Notes under the pieces: model-generated
The model's input: the letters and a program-made list of their open reading frames with translations, nothing else
Told to the model about the DNA's origin: nothing
Databases searched by the model: none
In this document: one piece after another, positions 13,044-22,537 of the stretch
How positions within the stretch are numbered: the stretch's first letter is position 1
Layout of the letters: each line of letters begins with the position of its first letter
From: Sulfitobacter sp. OXR-159
GTDB lineage: Bacteria; Pseudomonadota; Alphaproteobacteria; Rhodobacterales; Rhodobacteraceae
Assembly (NCBI RefSeq): GCF_034377145.1
Contig: NZ_CP139707.1
Span: forward strand, 62,001-126,000
DNA: 64,000 nucleotides
Reading direction: 5' to 3'
Translations under genes and position numbers: made by a program

Positions 13044-14190
13044 AGATTGGCAACAGGGCGGCTTCGGCCTTTATATCCACTGGCCATTTTGCGAGGCGAA
13101 ATGTCCCTATTGCGACTTCAACAGCCATGTCAGCCGCCGGATTGACCAAACCGCCTGGCGTGATGCCTATCTGGCCGAGCTTCAGAGAGCGGCGGATGAG
13201 ACACCGGGCCGCGTCCTCAACGCAGTCTTTTTCGGGGGCGGCACACCCAGCCTGATGGACCCGGATGTCGTGGCCGATATCATTGCCGCGATCCGGCGAC
13301 ACTGGCCCACCGCAAATGATCTGGAGATCACGCTCGAAGCCAACCCCGGTTCTGTCGAAGCGGGCCGTTTCACCGCTTACCGACAAGCCGGCGTTTCACG
13401 TGTCTCTATGGGAATTCAGGCGCTCAACGATTCAGATCTCAAGCGTTTGGGCCGCCTGCACTCTGCGAAAGAGGCGATGACGGCTTTCGATATCGCCCGC
13501 AATACGTTCGAACGGGTCAGTTTCGATCTTATCTATGGCCGTCAGGATCAAACCGCGGCCCAATGGGAAGCCGAGCTAAAGCAGGCTCTATCGCTTGCGA
13601 TAGACCATATTTCGCTCTACCAACTGACCATCGAACAAGGCACTGCTTTCGGCGACCGCTATGCCCGTGGCAAGCTGCGCGGCCTGCCCGACGAAGACTT
13701 GGGCGCGGATATGTTCACTCTGACACAAGACATTTGCAACGATATGGGCATGCCCGCCTATGAGGTTTCAAATCACGCGCGCGATGGCGCCCAATCGCGT
13801 CACAACCTGATCTATTGGCGCTACGGCGATTATATCGGTATCGGCCCCGGCGCGCACGGACGGCTGACGCTTGACGGACAGAAGTTGGCAACCGTCGCCT
13901 ATAGCAATCCGCAACGGTGGCTTGATGGTGTCGCGAAAGGCCAAGCGGAGAAACCCCGCGCCGCCATCAGCCGAAGCGAACAGGCGACCGAGTTTCTCCT
14001 TATGGGTCTGCGCCTGAAAGAAGGCGTCGATCTGGCTCGCTACGTCGAGATCGCCGGGCATGAAATCGACGAAAAGGCCGTCGATCACCTGCAAGATATT
14101 GGCATGGCAAAGCGCGAAGCAGGCAGATTAATCGTGTCCGATCAAGGCGTTATTGTTCTAAACGCCGTGATCGAAACGCTTTTGCCCTAG
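13036..14190 (+). CDS. hemW: Radical SAM haem chaperone HemW
   Basis: Haem-binding radical SAM protein thought to deliver haem to respiratory enzymes; often mislabelled as coproporphyrinogen oxidase HemN. The [4Fe-4S] motif [11 protein letters not shown] has cysteines at 19, 23 and 26. GGGTPSLM follows near 72. The N-terminal extension of true HemN is absent, which favours HemW. There is no ATG: I chose the TTG at 13036, overlapping the rdgB stop, because homologues start about six residues before the [11 protein letters not shown] strand. A TTG at 13024 is an alternative. The stop codon shares bases with that of convergent parB. Confidence 0.9.
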
Positions 14191-15086
14191 GACCCGCCCA
14201 GCAGGCGGCAGATCTCGTCCAACTGGTCAAGCGTGGTATAGTGCAACGTCACCTTACCCGCTTCTTGGCCCGGTTTATGGTCCAAACTAACCTTCATACC
14301 AAGGTTAGCTGACAGGTCGCCTTCAAGCGCCTGAGTATCGGCGTCTTTCTCTGAGCGCTGCGAGAGGCGCTCTTTATTTACCATATTTCCGCGCTCGCCA
14401 GCCTGATCTTTCTTGACCAACGCTTCGGTTGCGCGCACGGAAAGGCCACCCTTGATGACCTGCTGGGCCAATTTCATCGGGTCCTTTGCAGGGATCAGCG
14501 CCCGCGCGTGCCCCGCGCTTAATTCATTCTGACGCACCATTTCCTGGACCGGATCCGGCAGGTTCAACAGACGCAAAAGGTTCGCAATATGGCTCCGGCT
14601 CTTGCCAAGAGCCTCTGCCATCTTCTCCTGTGTGTGCCCGAATTTATCCATCAGCTGACGATAACCCGCCGCTTCTTCGACCGAGTTCAGGTCGGCCCGC
14701 TGGATGTTTTCGATAATCGCAACTTCAAGCACTTCAACATCTGTGAACTCGCGCACGATGACCGGAAGGCTATGTATCTTCGCGATTTGGGAAGCACGCC
14801 ACCGCCGCTCACCCGCGACAATCTCAAAGTTACCATTGTCCAGCGCACGCACGATCAGGGGCTGAATGACCCCCTTCTCCTTGATAGATGCGGCGAGGTC
14901 GTCCAGATGCTCTTGCTCAAACCGTTTACGCGGCTGATCTGGGTTCGGCTTGATCCGCTCAATCGGAACGAACTGCTCCGCCGCCGCGGCCCCCTTGGCG
15001 GCCACGCTCTCTGTCTCAGCTACATCCGCCATCAGTGCCGAAAGCCCCCGGCCAAGGCCCCGTTTACGCTCTTGTTTATCTGCCAT
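14187..15086 (-). CDS. parB: Chromosome partitioning protein ParB
   Basis: CTP-dependent clamp that loads at parS and spreads to build the segregation complex at the origin. 299 residues: basic N-terminus (KQERKRGLGRGLSALMADV), the ParB/Srx CTPase box GERRWRASQIAKI (about 93-105), the IENIQRADLNSVEEA motif, a helix-turn-helix (TQEKMAEALGKSRSHIANLLRLL, in parts) and a C-terminal dimer domain. It lies 12 bases after parA. Two perfect parS sites sit 1.4 and 3.3 kb upstream in rsmG and mnmG. Confidence 0.97.
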   Translation of the reverse strand: MADKQERKRGLGRGLSALMADVAETESVAAKGAAAAEQFVPIERIKPNPDQPRKRFEQEHLDDLAASIKEKGVIQPLIVRALDNGNFEIVAGERRWRASQIAKIHSLPVIVREFTDVEVLEVAIIENIQRADLNSVEEAAGYRQLMDKFGHTQEKMAEALGKSRSHIANLLRLLNLPDPVQEMVRQNELSAGHARALIPAKDPMKLAQQVIKGGLSVRATEALVKKDQAGERGNMVNKERLSQRSEKDADTQALEGDLSANLGMKVSLDHKPGQEAGKVTLHYTTLDQLDEICRLLGGS

Positions 15087-15098
15087 ACTGCCACCTTA

Positions 15099-15896
15099 TT
15101 AACCATTGTTTCTCGTTAGCTCTGCCGCCAAATCGCGGTAGGCTTGGGCCCCTTTCGAAGTAGGATCGTAACTCAAAACAGGCATCGCAAAACTTGGCGC
15201 TTCGCTTACCCGAACATTCCGCGGGATGACGGTCTGGAACACCAAATCTCCCAGGTTCGAACGCGCATCACTCTCAACCTGCTGCGACAGGTTATTCCGC
15301 CTATCATACATCGTAAGAAGCACGCCCTCGATCCTCAGCTCTTTATTCCCGCTCTGCCGCACTTCGCGGATCGTAAGCATAAGCTGTGAAAGACCCTCCA
15401 GCGCGAAAAACTCGCTCTGAAGCGGCACCAGAACAGAATGCGCCGCGATCATCGCGTTTACCGTCAATAGGTTGAGAGATGGAGGGCAGTCGATCAGGAT
15501 ATAGTCGAACTCAAACTGATCCATTGCTGGTTGCCGCAGCGCATCATGAAGAAGGAAGCTCCTCTTCTCATTCGAGAAAAGCTCAATATCTGCAGAGCTA
15601 AGGTCGACCGTCGCGGGAACGATAAGCAATCCATCCGTCTCAGTGCGCTGAATGACATCCTGCGGCAAGCTGTCGTCAAGCAAAAGATCATAGGTCGTGA
15701 ACTCTCGATCCTCTACTTCGATCCCAAGCCCGGTAGAGGCGTTCCCCTGCGGGTCAAGATCGACAACGAGGATTCGCTTGCCTGCCTCTGCAAGCGCTGC
15801 TGCGAGGTTGATGGTGGTAGTGGTCTTACCAACGCCGCCCTTTTGGTTCGCAATGGCAACGATTTTCGGTCCAGCCGGACGAGAGAGGTCAGACAC
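15099..15896 (-). CDS. parA: Chromosome partitioning ATPase ParA
   Basis: Deviant Walker-A ATPase that binds DNA non-specifically and pulls ParB-parS complexes. About 265 residues with NQKGGVGKTTTTINLAAALAEAG (P-loop lysines 19 and 24), the switch VVDLDPQGNAS and the YILIDCPPSLNLLTVNAM block. I chose the GTG at 15896, whose GTGTCTGA overlaps the rsmG stop by 8 bases; an upstream TTG at 15902 is possible. Soj-type chromosomal ParA, not a plasmid type, given the neighbours. Confidence 0.96.
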   Translation of the reverse strand: MSDLSRPAGPKIVAIANQKGGVGKTTTTINLAAALAEAGKRILVVDLDPQGNASTGLGIEVEDREFTTYDLLLDDSLPQDVIQRTETDGLLIVPATVDLSSADIELFSNEKRSFLLHDALRQPAMDQFEFDYILIDCPPSLNLLTVNAMIAAHSVLVPLQSEFFALEGLSQLMLTIREVRQSGNKELRIEGVLLTMYDRRNNLSQQVESDARSNLGDLVFQTVIPRNVRVSEAPSFAMPVLSYDPTSKGAQAYRDLAAELTRNNG

Positions 15897-16494
15897 GGGC
15901 AATATCCTTAATCTTCAAAATAGCGGCAGCTGGATTTGTTTTGCTCTCTATGGCTTCGAGCGCGTAGGTCCAGACTTTCTTAGCATCACTGTCTTCGCTT
16001 TGCCAATTCTGCCCCTTGGGAAAGAGCGCGGTACCGTCAGGATTTAGATGAAGGTCAGTGAAGTCCAAAAGCTGGGTCAAATCTGCAAGGGCTCGTGCCG
16101 ACAATAGATCGGCTTTGAGACCATCCAACTGCTCGATCCTCTCAGTTTTCACTAATGCGGTCAGGCCGAGTTCACGAATAGCGGTACGGAGAAACGCGCA
16201 TTTGCGTTGATCACTTTCGACCATGGTCACTTGAAAGGTCTGCGCTTCTTGATTGAGAATCGCAACCACAATTCCCGGAAACCCTCCGCCGCTGCCAAGA
16301 TCAACCCAATGGCCCTCGCCCTCTGCAAGTTCAAAAACCTGTACGGAATCGAGAATATGACGCTGCCAGAGATCATCCAAGCTGTTTTTGGAAACTAAAT
16401 TGATCTTCGGATTCCATTTTCGAACCAAATCTGCGAAGGCTTCCAGCTTGGAAAATGTTTCACGTGAAACATTCAGGTCATATTTTATCGTCAT
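15889..16494 (-). CDS. rsmG: 16S rRNA (guanine-527-N7) methyltransferase RsmG
   Basis: SAM-dependent methyltransferase (formerly GidB) acting on G527 of 16S rRNA. It has 201 residues with the SAM loop [16 protein letters not shown] at about 66-81. Codons for NVSRETF near residue 8 are built on a perfect parS palindrome (16456-16471), as seen in several other bacteria. It overlaps mnmG by 4 bases (ATGA) and parA by 8. Confidence 0.95.
16456..16471. promoter_or_regulatory. parS site 1, inside rsmG
   Basis: TGTTTCACGTGAAACA, a perfect 16-bp palindrome identical to the bacterial parS consensus. It is read in the rsmG frame as V-S-R-E-T. It lies 560 bases upstream of the parA start and is a ParB loading site by sequence. 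Confidence 0.9.
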
Positions 16495-18362
16495 GCGGAC
16501 CTCTTACCCGATCGCCTTTTCACCCGCGCGAGGATCAAAGTTAGGGCAGCCGGCGTCATCCCGTCGATACGGGCTGCCTGTGCCATCGTTTCAGGTCGGG
16601 CCGCCGCGATCTTCGATTTCAATTCATTAGAGAGCCCCGCAAGGTCGTCAAACATGAAATCAGCTGGTATCCGAAGGCCCTCGTCCTTCTTAAGGAGATC
16701 GATCTCGTTCTGCTGGCGAGAGATATAGGTCGCGTAAAGCGCATCGCGCTCGATCTGGCGTCGTACCTCTTGTGAGGCTTCCTCAAGGCTACTATCGAGC
16801 GACAATAGATCTTCGAACTTAACGTCTGGGAATGCGAGTACTTGAAAGCCATTCCGTTTAGAACCATCTTGGTTGACGGCAATACCGGCCTCCAAGAGTT
16901 CTTTGGGGGTAAATTCTTTAGAGAGTAATTGCTGTTTAATGGCCTTCAAAGAGGCCAGCTTACGCTGGAAAGTCTTACAACGAGCTTCCGATACGCAGCC
17001 GATCTCCATTGCCACGGGTGTCAAGCGCTGGTCCGCATTATCCGCGCGTAAGGATAGACGGAACTCCGCCCGGGACGTAAACATGCGATATGGCTCGCTC
17101 ACACCACGGGTCGTCAGGTCATCAATCATGACACCGATATAGCTCTCTGCCCGCCCGAAGGTTACAGCGTCCCTACCCAGTGACGTTAGCGCGGCGTTCA
17201 AGCCAGCGACGAGGCCCTGAGCAGCGGCCTCTTCATATCCTGTGGTACCATTGATCTGACCCGCCAAATAGAGGCCCGGCACGGTCCGCACAGCGAGGGT
17301 CGAAGACAAAGCACGCGGGTCTATATAATCGTATTCGATGGCATAGCCGGGCTGTATGATTACTGCATTTTCGAGCCCGACCATACTCCGTACGTAGGCC
17401 TCTTGTATGTCTTCCGGCAACGATGTTGAAATTCCGTTCGGGTATACAGTATGGTCGTCTACGCCCTCAGGCTCCAAGAAAACCTGATGCGAGTCTTTAT
17501 CCGCAAATCGAACCACCTTGTCTTCAATAGATGGGCAATAACGCGGGCCCACGCCATCGATATGCCCTCCATACATGGCGGACCTATCGAGGTTCTCGCG
17601 AATGATCTGATGAGTTTTCTCGTTGGTGTGCGTTATTCCGCAGGCGACCTGCGGCGCGGATACCGTAGTCGAAAGAAAGGAAAATACGACAGGCTCCTCG
17701 TCGCCAGGCTGTTTCTCCAAAATATCCCAGTTAATGGTTCGGCCGTCCAGGCGCGGCGGTGTTCCTGTCTTCAACCGTCCCATAGGAAGGCCGAAGGAGT
17801 CGATCCGCTTAGCGAGACGAACGGAGGCTTTGTCGCCCATCCGACCGCCCTGACGCGAGACGTCGCCGATATGAATGACGCCACGCAAAAAGGTTCCAGT
17901 GGTTAGGACCACAGAGGTAGCTCGGAGAGTAGCACCGTCGGCCAATACCACCCCAGCGACAGTGTCACCATCCATTGCGAAATCCACGACTTCGCCTTCG
18001 ACAATATCGAGGTTCTCTTGGCCTTCGATCTCTTTGAGCATCTCGGTACGGTAGATTTTGCGGTCTGCCTGGGCTCGCGGGCCTTGCACCGCGGGGCCTT
18101 TGCGACGGTTCAGCAGACGAAACTGAATGCCCGCCTTATCTGCCACCCGCCCCATAACGCCGTCCATCGCATCAATCTCGCGGACGAGGTGACCTTTGCC
18201 CAGCCCTCCAATCGCAGGATTGCAAGACATCACACCTATGCCGCTCCGGTCCATCGTCACAAGAGCGGTATGAGCTCCGAGGCGCGCCGAAGCGTGAGCC
18301 GCTTCCGCGCCCGCATGGCCGCCGCCGATCACGATCACATCAAAATGTTTCACGTGAAACAC
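16491..18362 (-). CDS. mnmG: tRNA uridine-34 5-carboxymethylaminomethyl modification enzyme MnmG
   Basis: FAD-binding partner of MnmE that modifies the wobble uridine of several tRNAs (formerly GidA). 623 residues: FAD loop [21 protein letters not shown] at about 9-29 (given in part), GidA signatures TGTFLRG and [10 protein letters not shown], and the C-terminal MnmE-binding helices. The start is GTG at 18362, because the first codons (V-F-H-V-K-H) are encoded by a parS palindrome. It begins only 4 bases after mnmE ends and overlaps rsmG by 4. Confidence 0.96.
18346..18361. promoter_or_regulatory. parS site 2, at the start of mnmG
   Basis: A second perfect TGTTTCACGTGAAACA. It takes in two bases of the mnmG GTG start codon, so the palindrome overlaps the translation start. 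It is 1,890 bases from parS site 1 and about 3.2 kb from the proposed oriC. Confidence 0.9.
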
Positions 18363-19685: not shown

Positions 19686-20957
19686 TCAGGTGTTCATGGA
19701 GTCGAAGAAGTCAGAATTCGACTTGGTCTGCTTGAGTTTGCCGAGCAGGAACTCGATGGCGTCGGTGGTCCCCATCGGGTTGAGAATGCGGCGCAGGACA
19801 AAGGTCTTTTGCAAGTCCACTTTATCGACCAGCAAATCCTCTTTCCGGGTGCCGGATTTGAGGATGTCGATCGCCGGGAAGACGCGCTTGTCGGCGATCT
19901 TGCGGTCCAGCACGATTTCGGAGTTGCCGGTACCTTTGAACTCTTCAAAGATCACTTCGTCCATGCGGCTGCCGGTGTCGATCAGCGCGGTCGCGATGAT
20001 GGTGAGCGATCCGCCCTCTTCAATGTTCCGTGCGGCACCGAAGAAGCGTTTTGGGCGCTGCAGGGCGTTTGCGTCGACACCACCGGTCAGAACCTTACCC
20101 GAAGATGGCACCACGGTGTTGAACGCGCGGCCCAGACGGGTGATCGAATCGAGCAAGATCACCACGTCGCGCTTGTGTTCGACAAGACGCTTGGCTTTCT
20201 CGATCACCATCTCGGACACGGCCACGTGGCGCGTTGCAGGTTCGTCGAAAGTGGAGGAAACGACCTCCCCCTTTACCGAACGCTGCATGTCGGTGACTTC
20301 CTCGGGCCGTTCGTCGATCAGCAAGACGATGAGATAGCACTCTGGGTGGTTCTTTTCGATGCTATTGGCGATGTTTTGCAGCAGCACGGTCTTACCGGTG
20401 CGCGGCGGGGCGACGATCAGCGAACGCTGACCCTTACCGATGGGCGACACGAGGTCGATGATCCGCGCGGAGCGGTCTTTGATAGTGGGGTCATCGACCT
20501 CCATCGTCAGGCGCTCGTCAGGGTAGAGCGGCGTCAGGTTTTCAAAAGCAACCTTATGGCGGGCCTTCTCAGGCGCCTCAAAGTTGATCTTGGTCACTTC
20601 GGTCAGCGCGAAATAGCGTTCGGTGTCGTCGGGCGCCTTGATCAGCCCCTCGATGGTGTCCCCGGTACGCAGCGACCATTTGCGGATCATGTCGGGCGAG
20701 ACATAGATGTCATCGGGGCCCGGCAGATAGTTCGCTTCGGGCGAGCGCAGGAAACCGAATCCGTCTTGCAGCACTTCCAAGACGCCATCGCCCGAGATCT
20801 CCCAACCGTCATCCGCGCGTTCGCGAAGAATTTGGAACATCATCTCGCCTTTACGCATGGTCGAGGCGTTTTCGATTTCCAGCTCTTCGGCCATGGCGAG
20901 CAGGTTTTTCGGCGTCTGCGCCTTGAGATCAGCGAGGTTCAGCGTTTCGGTTGTCAT
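19686..20957 (-). CDS. rho: Transcription termination factor Rho
   Basis: Hexameric RNA-dependent ATPase that ends transcription. 423 residues with an N-terminal Rho-N helix bundle, the cold-shock-like primary RNA site ([23 protein letters not shown], in parts), P-loop [12 protein letters not shown] at about 176-187 and the Q-loop/R-loop domain. Location next to mnmE and hemJ beside the origin is conserved in alphaproteobacteria. Confidence 0.97.
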
Positions 20958-21081: not shown

Positions 21082-21531
21082 TCAGAATTTCACAACGACC
21101 GAGAAGACGATCACGATCATCAAAAGCGTCGGCACCTCGTTCAAAAGGCGGAACTGACGGCCTGTCACCGTGCTGTCGCCGCTTTTGACGGATTTGACCT
21201 GTTTTTTCAACCAAATGTGGAAAACCGTCATGGCGACGACGCTAGCACCCTTGGTCCAAGGCCAGATCATCGTCCAATCCACGATTCCGGGCGTCAGAAC
21301 GAGGGCGAGGCCGAAACCCCATGTCGCCATCATCGCGGGGCGCATGATGAACTGAGCGAGCTTAAATTCCATCATCGAGAAGGTCTCATGCATCCGACCT
21401 GCCGAGCCTGCCTGTTCGACATGATGCACGAAGAGCCGGGGCAGATAGAAGAGCGCGGCCATCCAACTGATGACGGACACGATATGGAGCGCTTTGATCC
21501 ACGGATAGGCGAGGCTGAGAAGATCAAACAT
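21082..21531 (-). CDS. hemJ: Protoporphyrinogen IX oxidase HemJ
   Basis: Oxygen-independent membrane enzyme making protoporphyrin IX, the main form in alphaproteobacteria. 149 residues with four hydrophobic segments (about 12-30, 58-76, 84-103, 128-147), the KALHIVSVISWMAALFYLPRLFVHH pattern (in parts) with conserved His16, and RPAMMATWGFGLAL. It is the first gene left of the proposed oriC, reading away from it, 124 bases upstream of rho. hemE, often adjacent to this locus in relatives, is not present here. Confidence 0.9.
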   Translation of the reverse strand: MFDLLSLAYPWIKALHIVSVISWMAALFYLPRLFVHHVEQAGSAGRMHETFSMMEFKLAQFIMRPAMMATWGFGLALVLTPGIVDWTMIWPWTKGASVVAMTVFHIWLKKQVKSVKSGDSTVTGRQFRLLNEVPTLLMIVIVFSVVVKF

Positions 21532-21937
21532 GGGGACGGCTCCGGTGTGCGTGCTTCTTTCTTAATAAATAAGAAAAGAGAAAAGATGTAGTTGATTGTA
21601 GGGAACCGGATTCCTGTGGATTAATGATTTATACAGCCGCTTATCAACAGGTGAACAAACTTCACCGCCACCTGTGGATAAACCCGCCCCGATTCGCGAA
21701 TGTTGAACTTTCTCAGGATCTTGCCAGCGTATTTTCCGGGGGACAAAATGTATCAAAGAGGGGATAACCGATGAAGTGCCGTGGTTATACGCACAAGCGG
21801 CTTATCCCTATCCATCGGGGTGGGAATCGGCGACAAAAACCGCGACTCGGGGCGAGATCTGCGGGCTTGTGCTGTCAACTTTTATCTCGCAGAACAAATC
21901 CTCAAGATTTGCGCCAGATCATCACAGGGTTATCCAC
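21532..21937. other. Putative chromosomal replication origin (oriC)
   Basis: A 406-base gene-free gap between divergent hemJ and maf. It holds an A+T-rich stretch at 21556-21600 (including TTAATAAATAAG, a candidate unwinding element), two perfect DnaA boxes TTATCCACA (21673-21681 minus strand; 21930-21938 plus strand), and one-mismatch boxes at 21615-21623 (TAATCCACA, minus) and 21641-21649 (TTATCAACA, plus). Two-mismatch forms are at 21802-21810 and on the minus strand near 21760. Four GANTC sites (21609, 21691, 21824, 21844) could be CcrM targets. Flanking order (parB-parA...rho-hemJ / maf-aroE-coaE-dnaQ) is that of known alphaproteobacterial origins. Confidence 0.85.
21673..21681 (-). promoter_or_regulatory. 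DnaA box, perfect
   Basis: TTATCCACA on the minus strand, in the middle of the oriC gap, with one-mismatch boxes at 21615 and 21641 nearby. Confidence 0.8.
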
Positions 21938-21938
21938 A
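21930..21938 (+). promoter_or_regulatory. DnaA box, perfect, touching the maf start codon
   Basis: TTATCCACA whose last A is the first base of the maf ATG (21938-21940). DnaA bound here would cover the maf ribosome site and start. Confidence 0.75.
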
Positions 21939-22537
21939 TGCCGCAGAAAATCGTCCTCGCCTCCGGCTCGGAGATCCGCGCAAAACTCTTGGCGCAGGCC
22001 GCGATCCCGCATGAGGTGATCCCGGCGCGGATCGACGAAGAGATGATCACCGCTGCCCTGCGCGCAGAGGCGGCGAAACCGCGCGACATCGCCGATACAT
22101 TGGCCGAGATGAAGGCCCGCAATGTGAGCGAAAAACACCCCGGCGCCCTGGTATTGGGCTGCGATCAGGTCTTGGAGCATCGCGGAGAGATGTTGCACAA
22201 GCCGCGTGATCGGGATGAGGCCATCGCGCAGCTTTACCAGTTGCGCGGGGATCGGCATTCGCTGCTCTCTGCCGCCGTGCTCTACGAAGATGGTGAACCG
22301 CTGTGGCGGCATGTCGGCCAAGTGCGGCTGCGGATGCGTGACGCCAGTGACGCCTATATTAAGGACTACGTCGAACGGAACTGGGACAGCATCCGCTACG
22401 CGGTGGGCTGCTATAAGCTGGAAGAAGAAGGTGTGCGGCTGTTCAGCCAGATTGAGGGGGATTACTTTCACGTCCTCGGTATGCCATTTCTTGAACTGCT
22501 GAATTACCTGACGCTGCGCGGAGACCTCACGACATGA
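21938..22537 (+). CDS. maf: Maf-family nucleoside triphosphate pyrophosphatase
   Basis: Hydrolyses modified or canonical nucleoside triphosphates (dTTP/UTP or 7-methyl-GTP subfamilies). 199 residues with the LASGSEIRAKLLAQA phosphate loop at about 7-21, the GCDQVLEHRGEMLHKP block and a later YIKDYVERNWDSIRYAVGCYKLEEEG block (in parts). It deviates from the classical LASxSPRR motif, as alphaproteobacterial origin-linked Maf proteins do. The ATG at 21938 follows AGGG; an open frame continues upstream into oriC but lacks a ribosome site. Overlaps aroE by 4 bases. Confidence 0.88.
   Translation: MPQKIVLASGSEIRAKLLAQAAIPHEVIPARIDEEMITAALRAEAAKPRDIADTLAEMKARNVSEKHPGALVLGCDQVLEHRGEMLHKPRDRDEAIAQLYQLRGDRHSLLSAAVLYEDGEPLWRHVGQVRLRMRDASDAYIKDYVERNWDSIRYAVGCYKLEEEGVRLFSQIEGDYFHVLGMPFLELLNYLTLRGDLTT

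Follow-up and report, generated by a model that had tools for sequence, protein, structure and literature searches.

Results

The window analyzed here is a 64-kb stretch of DNA (C1:62001-126000) from a Sulfitobacter-like genome of 4.42 Mb in 8 contigs, of which contig C1 comprises 3512771 bases. A gene-free gap of 406 bases occupies window positions 21532 to 21937 between two divergent genes, hemJ on the minus strand (21082 to 21531; an open reading frame with homologues in relatives) and maf on the plus strand (21938 to 22537; an open reading frame with an ATG at 21938 that homologues back as the start). A sequence-only reading had proposed the region as the probable chromosomal origin; the gap, its length and the divergence of the genes on its two sides proved real, as did the start of the proposed interval of 21532 to 21938, whereas its end did not stand, since the maf ATG begins at 21938 and the gap stops at 21937. 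The same reading expected the origin neighborhood to lie close to parAB and parS, which is the case: open reading frames for parB and parA lie on the minus strand at 14187 to 15902, and the sole perfect parS palindromes of the genome lie at 16456 to 16471 and 18346 to 18361, which places them 5.1 and 3.2 kb from the gap on its left side. The names hemJ, maf, parA and parB are presumed from the proteins, as are those in the gene order leftward of the gap (rho, mnmE, mnmG, rsmG, parA, and parB) and rightward of it (aroE, coaE, dnaQ, and secB). The letters of the two parS palindromes also encode N-terminal residues of rsmG (peptide NVSRET) and mnmG (peptide MFHVKH), so that centromere and coding sequence overlap.

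A scan for DnaA boxes found two perfect boxes in the gap and, in line with the near-matches noted earlier, two single-mismatch boxes and three double-mismatch boxes. Closest to the A+T-rich block described below is an R1-like box with one mismatch, TAATCCACA (21615 to 21623, minus strand); of the nine columns of alignment A1 that hardly vary, three fall in this box. It is followed by TTATCAACA, also with one mismatch (21641 to 21649, plus); a perfect box, TTATCCACA (21673 to 21681, minus); three weak boxes with two mismatches (21759 to 21767, minus; 21785 to 21793, plus; and 21802 to 21810, plus); and a second perfect TTATCCACA box (21930 to 21938, plus), its final base doubling as the A of the maf ATG. 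Conservation of a perfect box at 21673 was rejected, since each of the three nearest relatives has it with one mismatch. The 64-kb window as a whole has 11 boxes with at most one mismatch against 5.4 expected, a count reached in 1 of 100 shuffles, and 4 of the 11 fall inside the gap. Within the 824 kb of this genome that was sampled, the box score of the gap (29; a weighted count of boxes with at most two mismatches) is the highest, and all 400-bp stretches scoring at least 20 overlap the gap, which thus holds the DnaA-box cluster characteristic of a bacterial chromosomal oriC. The perfect box word itself is not enriched genome-wide (19 places versus 21 for the reversed control); 257 bp separate the two perfect copies in the gap, and any other pair on contig C1 is separated by at least about 65 kb.

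The A+T-rich block noted by the sequence-only reading lies at 21551 to 21600, where the composition is 74% A+T, a value matched by only 4.5e-5 of the 50-base stretches in the 824-kb sample. It is conserved in the aligned relatives and adjoins a DnaA box, as the unwinding block of a bacterial chromosomal oriC does, and we refer to it as the putative duplex-unwinding element (DUE). An IHF-like site at 21711 to 21723 (plus strand) matches seven of the nine fixed letters of WATCAANNNNTTR, counted by eye; at this aligned place at least eight of nine letters are found in 29 of 68 gaps, compared with a median of 0 at other positions. The best IHF match of the window's own gap (eight of nine) is elsewhere, at 21642, overlapping a DnaA box. 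The gap contains no CtrA site of the form TTAA-N7-TTAA with 0 or 1 mismatch, on which ground CtrA control of the origin was rejected, and no TGATCCACA G-box; the exact TTAA-N7-TTAA motif is present in 6 of the 68 aligned gaps.

Four GANTC (CcrM-type) sites, the number previously counted, span 21609 to 21848 (starts at 21609, 21691, 21824, and 21844), compared with 0.32 expected at the rate of the 824-kb sample; 0.1% of stretches of equal length reach four. Across the 68 gaps, the number per hemJ-maf gap ranges from 0 to 11. Because the sites are not conserved among relatives, they give weak support for an origin, and GANTC was rejected as a conserved origin mark, being absent from 23 of 68 gaps. 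Two relatives (L035 and L038) have 11 GANTC sites each in a hemJ-maf gap of approximately 400 bp. Over the whole window GANTC is depleted at least 4-fold (54 sites versus approximately 228 expected from base composition; dinucleotide shuffles gave 284, a count that may take the palindrome on both strands) and appears by eye to be denser at approximately 12 to 24 kb.

GC skew was computed on 320 contiguous kb, with C1 taken as circular, and on 20 stretches of 20 kb round the chromosome. This check, which had been suggested with the original proposal, put the cumulative minimum of the contiguous 320 kb at window position 19687, so that, within the 824 kb sampled, the gap lies 1.8 kb from the skew minimum at which a bacterial chromosomal oriC is expected. 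Rightward of the gap the 20-kb stretches have a positive skew and leftward a negative one, with a change of sign near 1.72 to 1.76 Mb: it is +0.061 at 1.70 to 1.72 Mb (L116), -0.006 at 1.74 to 1.76 Mb (L117), and negative thereafter except at 2.11 Mb (L123; +0.027). The word GGGNAGGG, which we take to be the FtsK-orienting word of Escherichia coli, is about twice as common in the genome as its reversed control (587 and 592 versus 281 and 302) and is strongly polarized, with 66 plus and 2 minus sites in 12 stretches of the right arm and 2 plus and 65 minus sites in 15 stretches of the left arm; these sums leave out L001 (0 plus, 3 minus) and the stretches near the gap. Its polarity flips sharply between L116 and L117, at 1.72 to 1.74 Mb. 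The bias is weaker in the 320 kb that surround the gap, where the left side has 9 plus and 33 minus sites and the right side has 28 plus and 12 minus sites, and two observations there run counter to an origin at the gap: the best local switch is at 29 to 33 kb of the window, 7 to 11 kb right of the gap, and five minus sites lie within the first 10 kb to its right.

Conservation was assessed in the best 80 of 567 relatives from a HemJ search, in which the nearest relatives with a name were Sulfitobacter. In 67 of the 80, maf adjoins hemJ across a gap of 385 to 450 bp, with ends extrapolated from protein matches. Three of the 13 loci in which no maf match lies by hemJ are cut by a contig end (L050, L058, and L096), and the remaining 10 are from Paracoccus (L057, L060, L062, L069, L071, L074, L080, L084, L094, and L102); as this holds for 10 of 10 Paracoccus loci, the origin neighborhood seems to be rearranged in that genus. 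An alignment of 68 gaps shows, from the hemJ side, the A+T block, GGATGATG...TGTAGGG, a CTGTGGATTA box, and the IHF-like site; toward maf follow CTGTGGATAA and TTATCC...TCCAC and then CACAGGGTTATCCAC at the maf start. The 68 gaps average 3.3 boxes with at most one mismatch, versus 0.09 in shuffles. In 52 of the 68 gaps the maf ATG has a box of this quality no more than 12 nt away, versus 0.12 in shuffles, and DnaA could repress maf through such a box at its start codon.

A sequence profile (R1) built from 67 copies of the A+T block and first box, one relative (L026) having been dropped for its N, matched 69 of 385 alphaproteobacterial genomes at an E value of at most 0.01. Of its best 30 loci, which include five from the window's own family and genome, 27 adjoin hemE, PPPase (COG1806 type), maf, aroE, rho, or their neighbors, and three (L144, L145, and L148) lie outside the origin neighborhood. 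The stricter filters of a second profile (R2), built from 40 sequences, left 171 of the 385 genomes with a match and 214 with none. Among 40 fresh matches, not among the 30 of R1 and taken down to an E value of 4.7e-5, 38 are in the origin neighborhood and two (L171 and L184) are outside it; genomes G216 and G159 were left out of the 40, as were G132 and G174, the genomes of the R1 failures L144 and L145, and counting the latter two the tally becomes 38 of 42. This tally checks the position found by R2, not its triplets. In the present genome the profiles find a single place.

The consensus of the 38 loci reads ATAAAAAGG TAG TTG TTG TTG TTG, then a short spacer and GGATA.CGGGGATTA, a stretch that reads as tandem DnaA boxes. 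A G recurs every third base: at least four of five positions have it in 36 of the 38 loci (13.7 when shuffled, itself a high null) and all five in 24 (1.4 when shuffled), and the family set has at least four of five in 59 of 67 (13.8 when shuffled). The middle base of the triplets is T, A, or G at frequencies of 0.44, 0.35, and 0.17 in the 38 loci and 0.59, 0.31, and 0.10 in the family, figures that are rough because the counting script took the wrong stretch in several loci, e.g., inside boxes. As judged from these sequences, the element is a phased array of G-ending triplets adjoining tandem DnaA boxes, in a layout like that of the B. subtilis basal unwinding system (BUS) with its DnaA-trios. 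The window's own copy is a slipped, degenerate example; read by eye, it consists of five triplets, ATG TAG TTG (A) TTG TAG (21586 to 21601, plus strand), with a one-base slip after the two box-proximal ones, and 13 nt, likewise counted by eye, separate the box-proximal TAG from the first DnaA box (21602 to 21614).

In the published account, a BUS comprises a box and, across a spacer of at most 16 nt, three or more NAN triplets in the 3'-to-5' direction (PMC8287927). On neither strand of the window's gap do three or more NAN triplets lie 16 nt or less from a box, even when the box is allowed two mismatches, and this rule was rejected for its element. Across the aligned gaps, the NAN rule holds somewhere in the gap, on either strand, in 49 of 68 cases (17.6 when shuffled), which, being a count over whole gaps, may reflect other boxes. 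At the element itself it does no better than chance: of the 68 family gaps 15 comply (opposite strand, 11; shuffle null, 25.5), and of the 38 class loci 6 (null, 5.0). A variant rule, under which three or more [T/A][A/T/G]G triplets must follow one another without a break and lie no more than 16 nt from a box, also fails for the window's copy; it fits 25 of the 38 class loci (null, 0.3) and 24 of the 68 family gaps (null, 6.2). Since this rule was written after inspection of the 38 loci, themselves found by a profile of similar sequence, it was tested on 22 loci from different families that were located by hemE alone. These came from 30 genomes picked from G001 to G034 (without G008, G018, G022, and G023), 8 of which had no hemE match; 5 of the 22 loci had no other origin-neighborhood gene in reach, and two (L226 and L227) came from genomes used for R2. 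The variant rule fits 9 of the 22 loci, L227 among them, and does not fit 13 (opposite strand, 2; shuffled, 0.06), while the NAN rule fits 5 (opposite strand, 9; shuffled, 1.85). Five of the nine fitting loci are from genomes that R2 missed (G007, G014, G015, G027, and G033).

The DnaA protein of this genome was aligned to PDB chain 8btg, which we take to be Bacillus subtilis DnaA, and has Lys, Glu, and Tyr at the places of Arg202, Glu228, and Asn187. In 29 other alphaproteobacterial DnaA proteins (91 genomes had a match, of which the best 30 loci were used, and L213 gave no usable open reading frame), the first two places are Lys and Glu in all 29, and the Asn187 place is Tyr in 26, Phe in 2, and His in 1. 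The alignment has Asn at this place in chain 2z4r, presumably Thermotoga maritima DnaA, and Gln in chain 1l8q (Aquifex). The numbering of 8btg agrees with the residues named in PMC10721633, according to which Arg202 and Glu228 of B. subtilis DnaA contact the guanine of a triplet and Asn187 the middle adenine. The same text reports that a change of the middle A to G or T slows opening, whereas a change to C does not. Elsewhere in the present genome, seven open reading frames of 253 to 319 amino acids (C1:2207849, C3:15267, C4:41492, C4:52519, C5:43835, C5:128700, and C7:40887) give weak Bac_DnaA matches. Several of them have the same score, and the set resembles copies of a helper ATPase of a transposon.

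Discussion

The gap at 21532 to 21937 is almost certainly the chromosomal oriC of this Sulfitobacter-like genome; the skew minimum, the polarity of GGGNAGGG, the parS sites, the box score, and the relatives together support the origin predicted by the sequence-only reading. Such an origin is in itself expected and ordinary. An origin at dnaA (C1:1-1362), 83 kb to the left, would reduce the gap to a DnaA-binding regulatory region. Many bacteria start replication at that gene, and C1:1 does carry a full-length dnaA followed by an open reading frame that resembles dnaN; the arms would also be slightly better balanced (approximately 49:51, versus 47:53 for an origin at the gap, calculated by hand). 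Cumulative skew, however, makes no turn at dnaA and still falls from -1434 at C1:1 to -3768 at C1:81687, the flanking stretches L001 and L110 contain no box cluster, and parS is not there; we rejected this location as very improbable.

It is similarly hard to believe that the boxes serve DnaA-dependent control of hemJ and maf transcription instead of an origin. Divergent promoters must sit in or near the gap, and the last box reaches into the maf start codon, a position that keeps a box in 52 of 68 gaps; such control would nevertheless leave the skew minimum, parS, and the A+T block unexplained, and in other families the element adjoins other genes (hemE, PPPase, and rho). Regulatory and origin roles of the boxes can coexist. 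An origin at hemE (C1:134282), 50 kb from the gap, was dismissed, there being no skew minimum at that gene and no box cluster in stretches L107 and L108.

For the predicted oriC in the gap, we envisage that DnaA would bind the box cluster and that the box at 21615 to 21623 would anchor a DnaA filament running left over the 13-nt spacer to the plus-strand triplets at 21586 to 21601. This filament would open the A+T-rich block at 21551 to 21600, the plus strand being the one that DnaA presumably takes, and an IHF-type bend near 21711 to 21723 might aid opening. Helicases would then load at the opened block, forks would proceed both ways to a terminus near 1.73 Mb, and ParB, presumably bound to parS 3 to 5 kb away, would segregate the new origins. 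The window's oriC probably works like a BUS. Its 13-nt spacer fits a BUS and both strict triplet rules failed, and we therefore classify it as an oriC, not as a BUS member by the published rule.

Our tentative proposal, to which we give somewhat less than even credence, is a variant DnaA-trio code of Alphaproteobacteria, 3'-G-N-T-5'. In this code the G and the three-base phase would be kept and the middle base would be free because the equivalent of Asn187 became aromatic, mostly Tyr, while the guanine-contacting pair was kept as Lys and Glu. Conservation of the guanine contacts without the adenine reader agrees with a triplet that retains its G but tolerates different middle bases; this pairing of DNA and protein is a correlation within one class. 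Alternatively, the array might be read as single-strand motifs of the E. coli type, for which TTGT and TTATT are named (PMC10797057, PMC10316083), and not as DnaA-trios. The (TTG)n arrays of many relatives do hold TTGT on the same strand, and the order of DUE, R1-like box, and IHF-like site is that of E. coli (PMC10316083). TTGT by itself, however, predicts no three-base period, and the array of L229 (AGG-TGG-TGG-TAG-TGG-TGG-TGG-ATG) lacks TTGT yet has G every third base; we consider this reading rather unlikely.

That DnaA homologues may recognize single-strand sequences other than those of B. subtilis DnaA is a possibility raised in PMC10721633. The alphaproteobacterial element, in which a DNA change is paired with a protein change, makes this possibility directly testable, and a single profile can place oriC in many Alphaproteobacteria. 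The variant element is not described in the portions covered of the literature on DnaA-trios and alphaproteobacteria. For DnaA-trios and Caulobacter crescentus the coverage was PMC8235120, PMC10316083, PMC10225481, PMC10797057, and PMC5043019, and an earlier description is possible.

Among known systems, the classical alphaproteobacterial origin sits between hemE and COG1806 (PMC1914354). Cori of C. crescentus shares with the gap the class-level neighborhood, DnaA boxes, and an A+T-rich block, and its IHF site may have a counterpart in the IHF-like site of the gap (PMC1914354, PMC4285127). It differs in its flanks, as here hemJ and maf border the gap, hemE is 50 kb away, and the origin does not lie between hemE and COG1806, and in the TTAA-N7-TTAA sites and TGATCCACA G-box that the gap lacks. 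Closer to the present genome, the Ori-Finder oriC regions of 101 Rhodobacteraceae likewise combine a nucleotide disparity minimum, DnaA boxes, and parAB nearby (PMC6699656), whereas anatomy at the level of the element is absent from the accessible portion of that article.

E. coli oriC shares with the gap, in addition to the order of its parts, a distance of 13 nt, which in E. coli runs from a TAG to TGTGGATAA, and differs in that other genes flank its origin gap. The E. coli spacing is that of a 44-letter sequence matched in 4799 of 5426 E. coli genomes. The eTrio of T. maritima has repeated TAG triplets, needed there for unwinding (PMC10316083); it consists of TAG only, whereas alphaproteobacterial arrays mix TAG with TTG, TGG, and ATG. 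The BUS of B. subtilis resembles the alphaproteobacterial element in its one-strand order of triplets, G+C-rich spacer, and box or tandem boxes (PMC8287927, PMC10721633), in a spacer whose reported peak is 10 to 13 nt (13 here), and in a box-proximal 5'-TAG-3' (PMC8287927). It differs in that the alphaproteobacterial middle base is T, A, or G, not A, and that Tyr takes the place of Asn187, and the published (.A.){3,} rule does no better than chance at the alphaproteobacterial element. From these comparisons we infer that the opening element of the gap is a widespread alphaproteobacterial version that falls outside the published trio rule and may follow a variant trio code.
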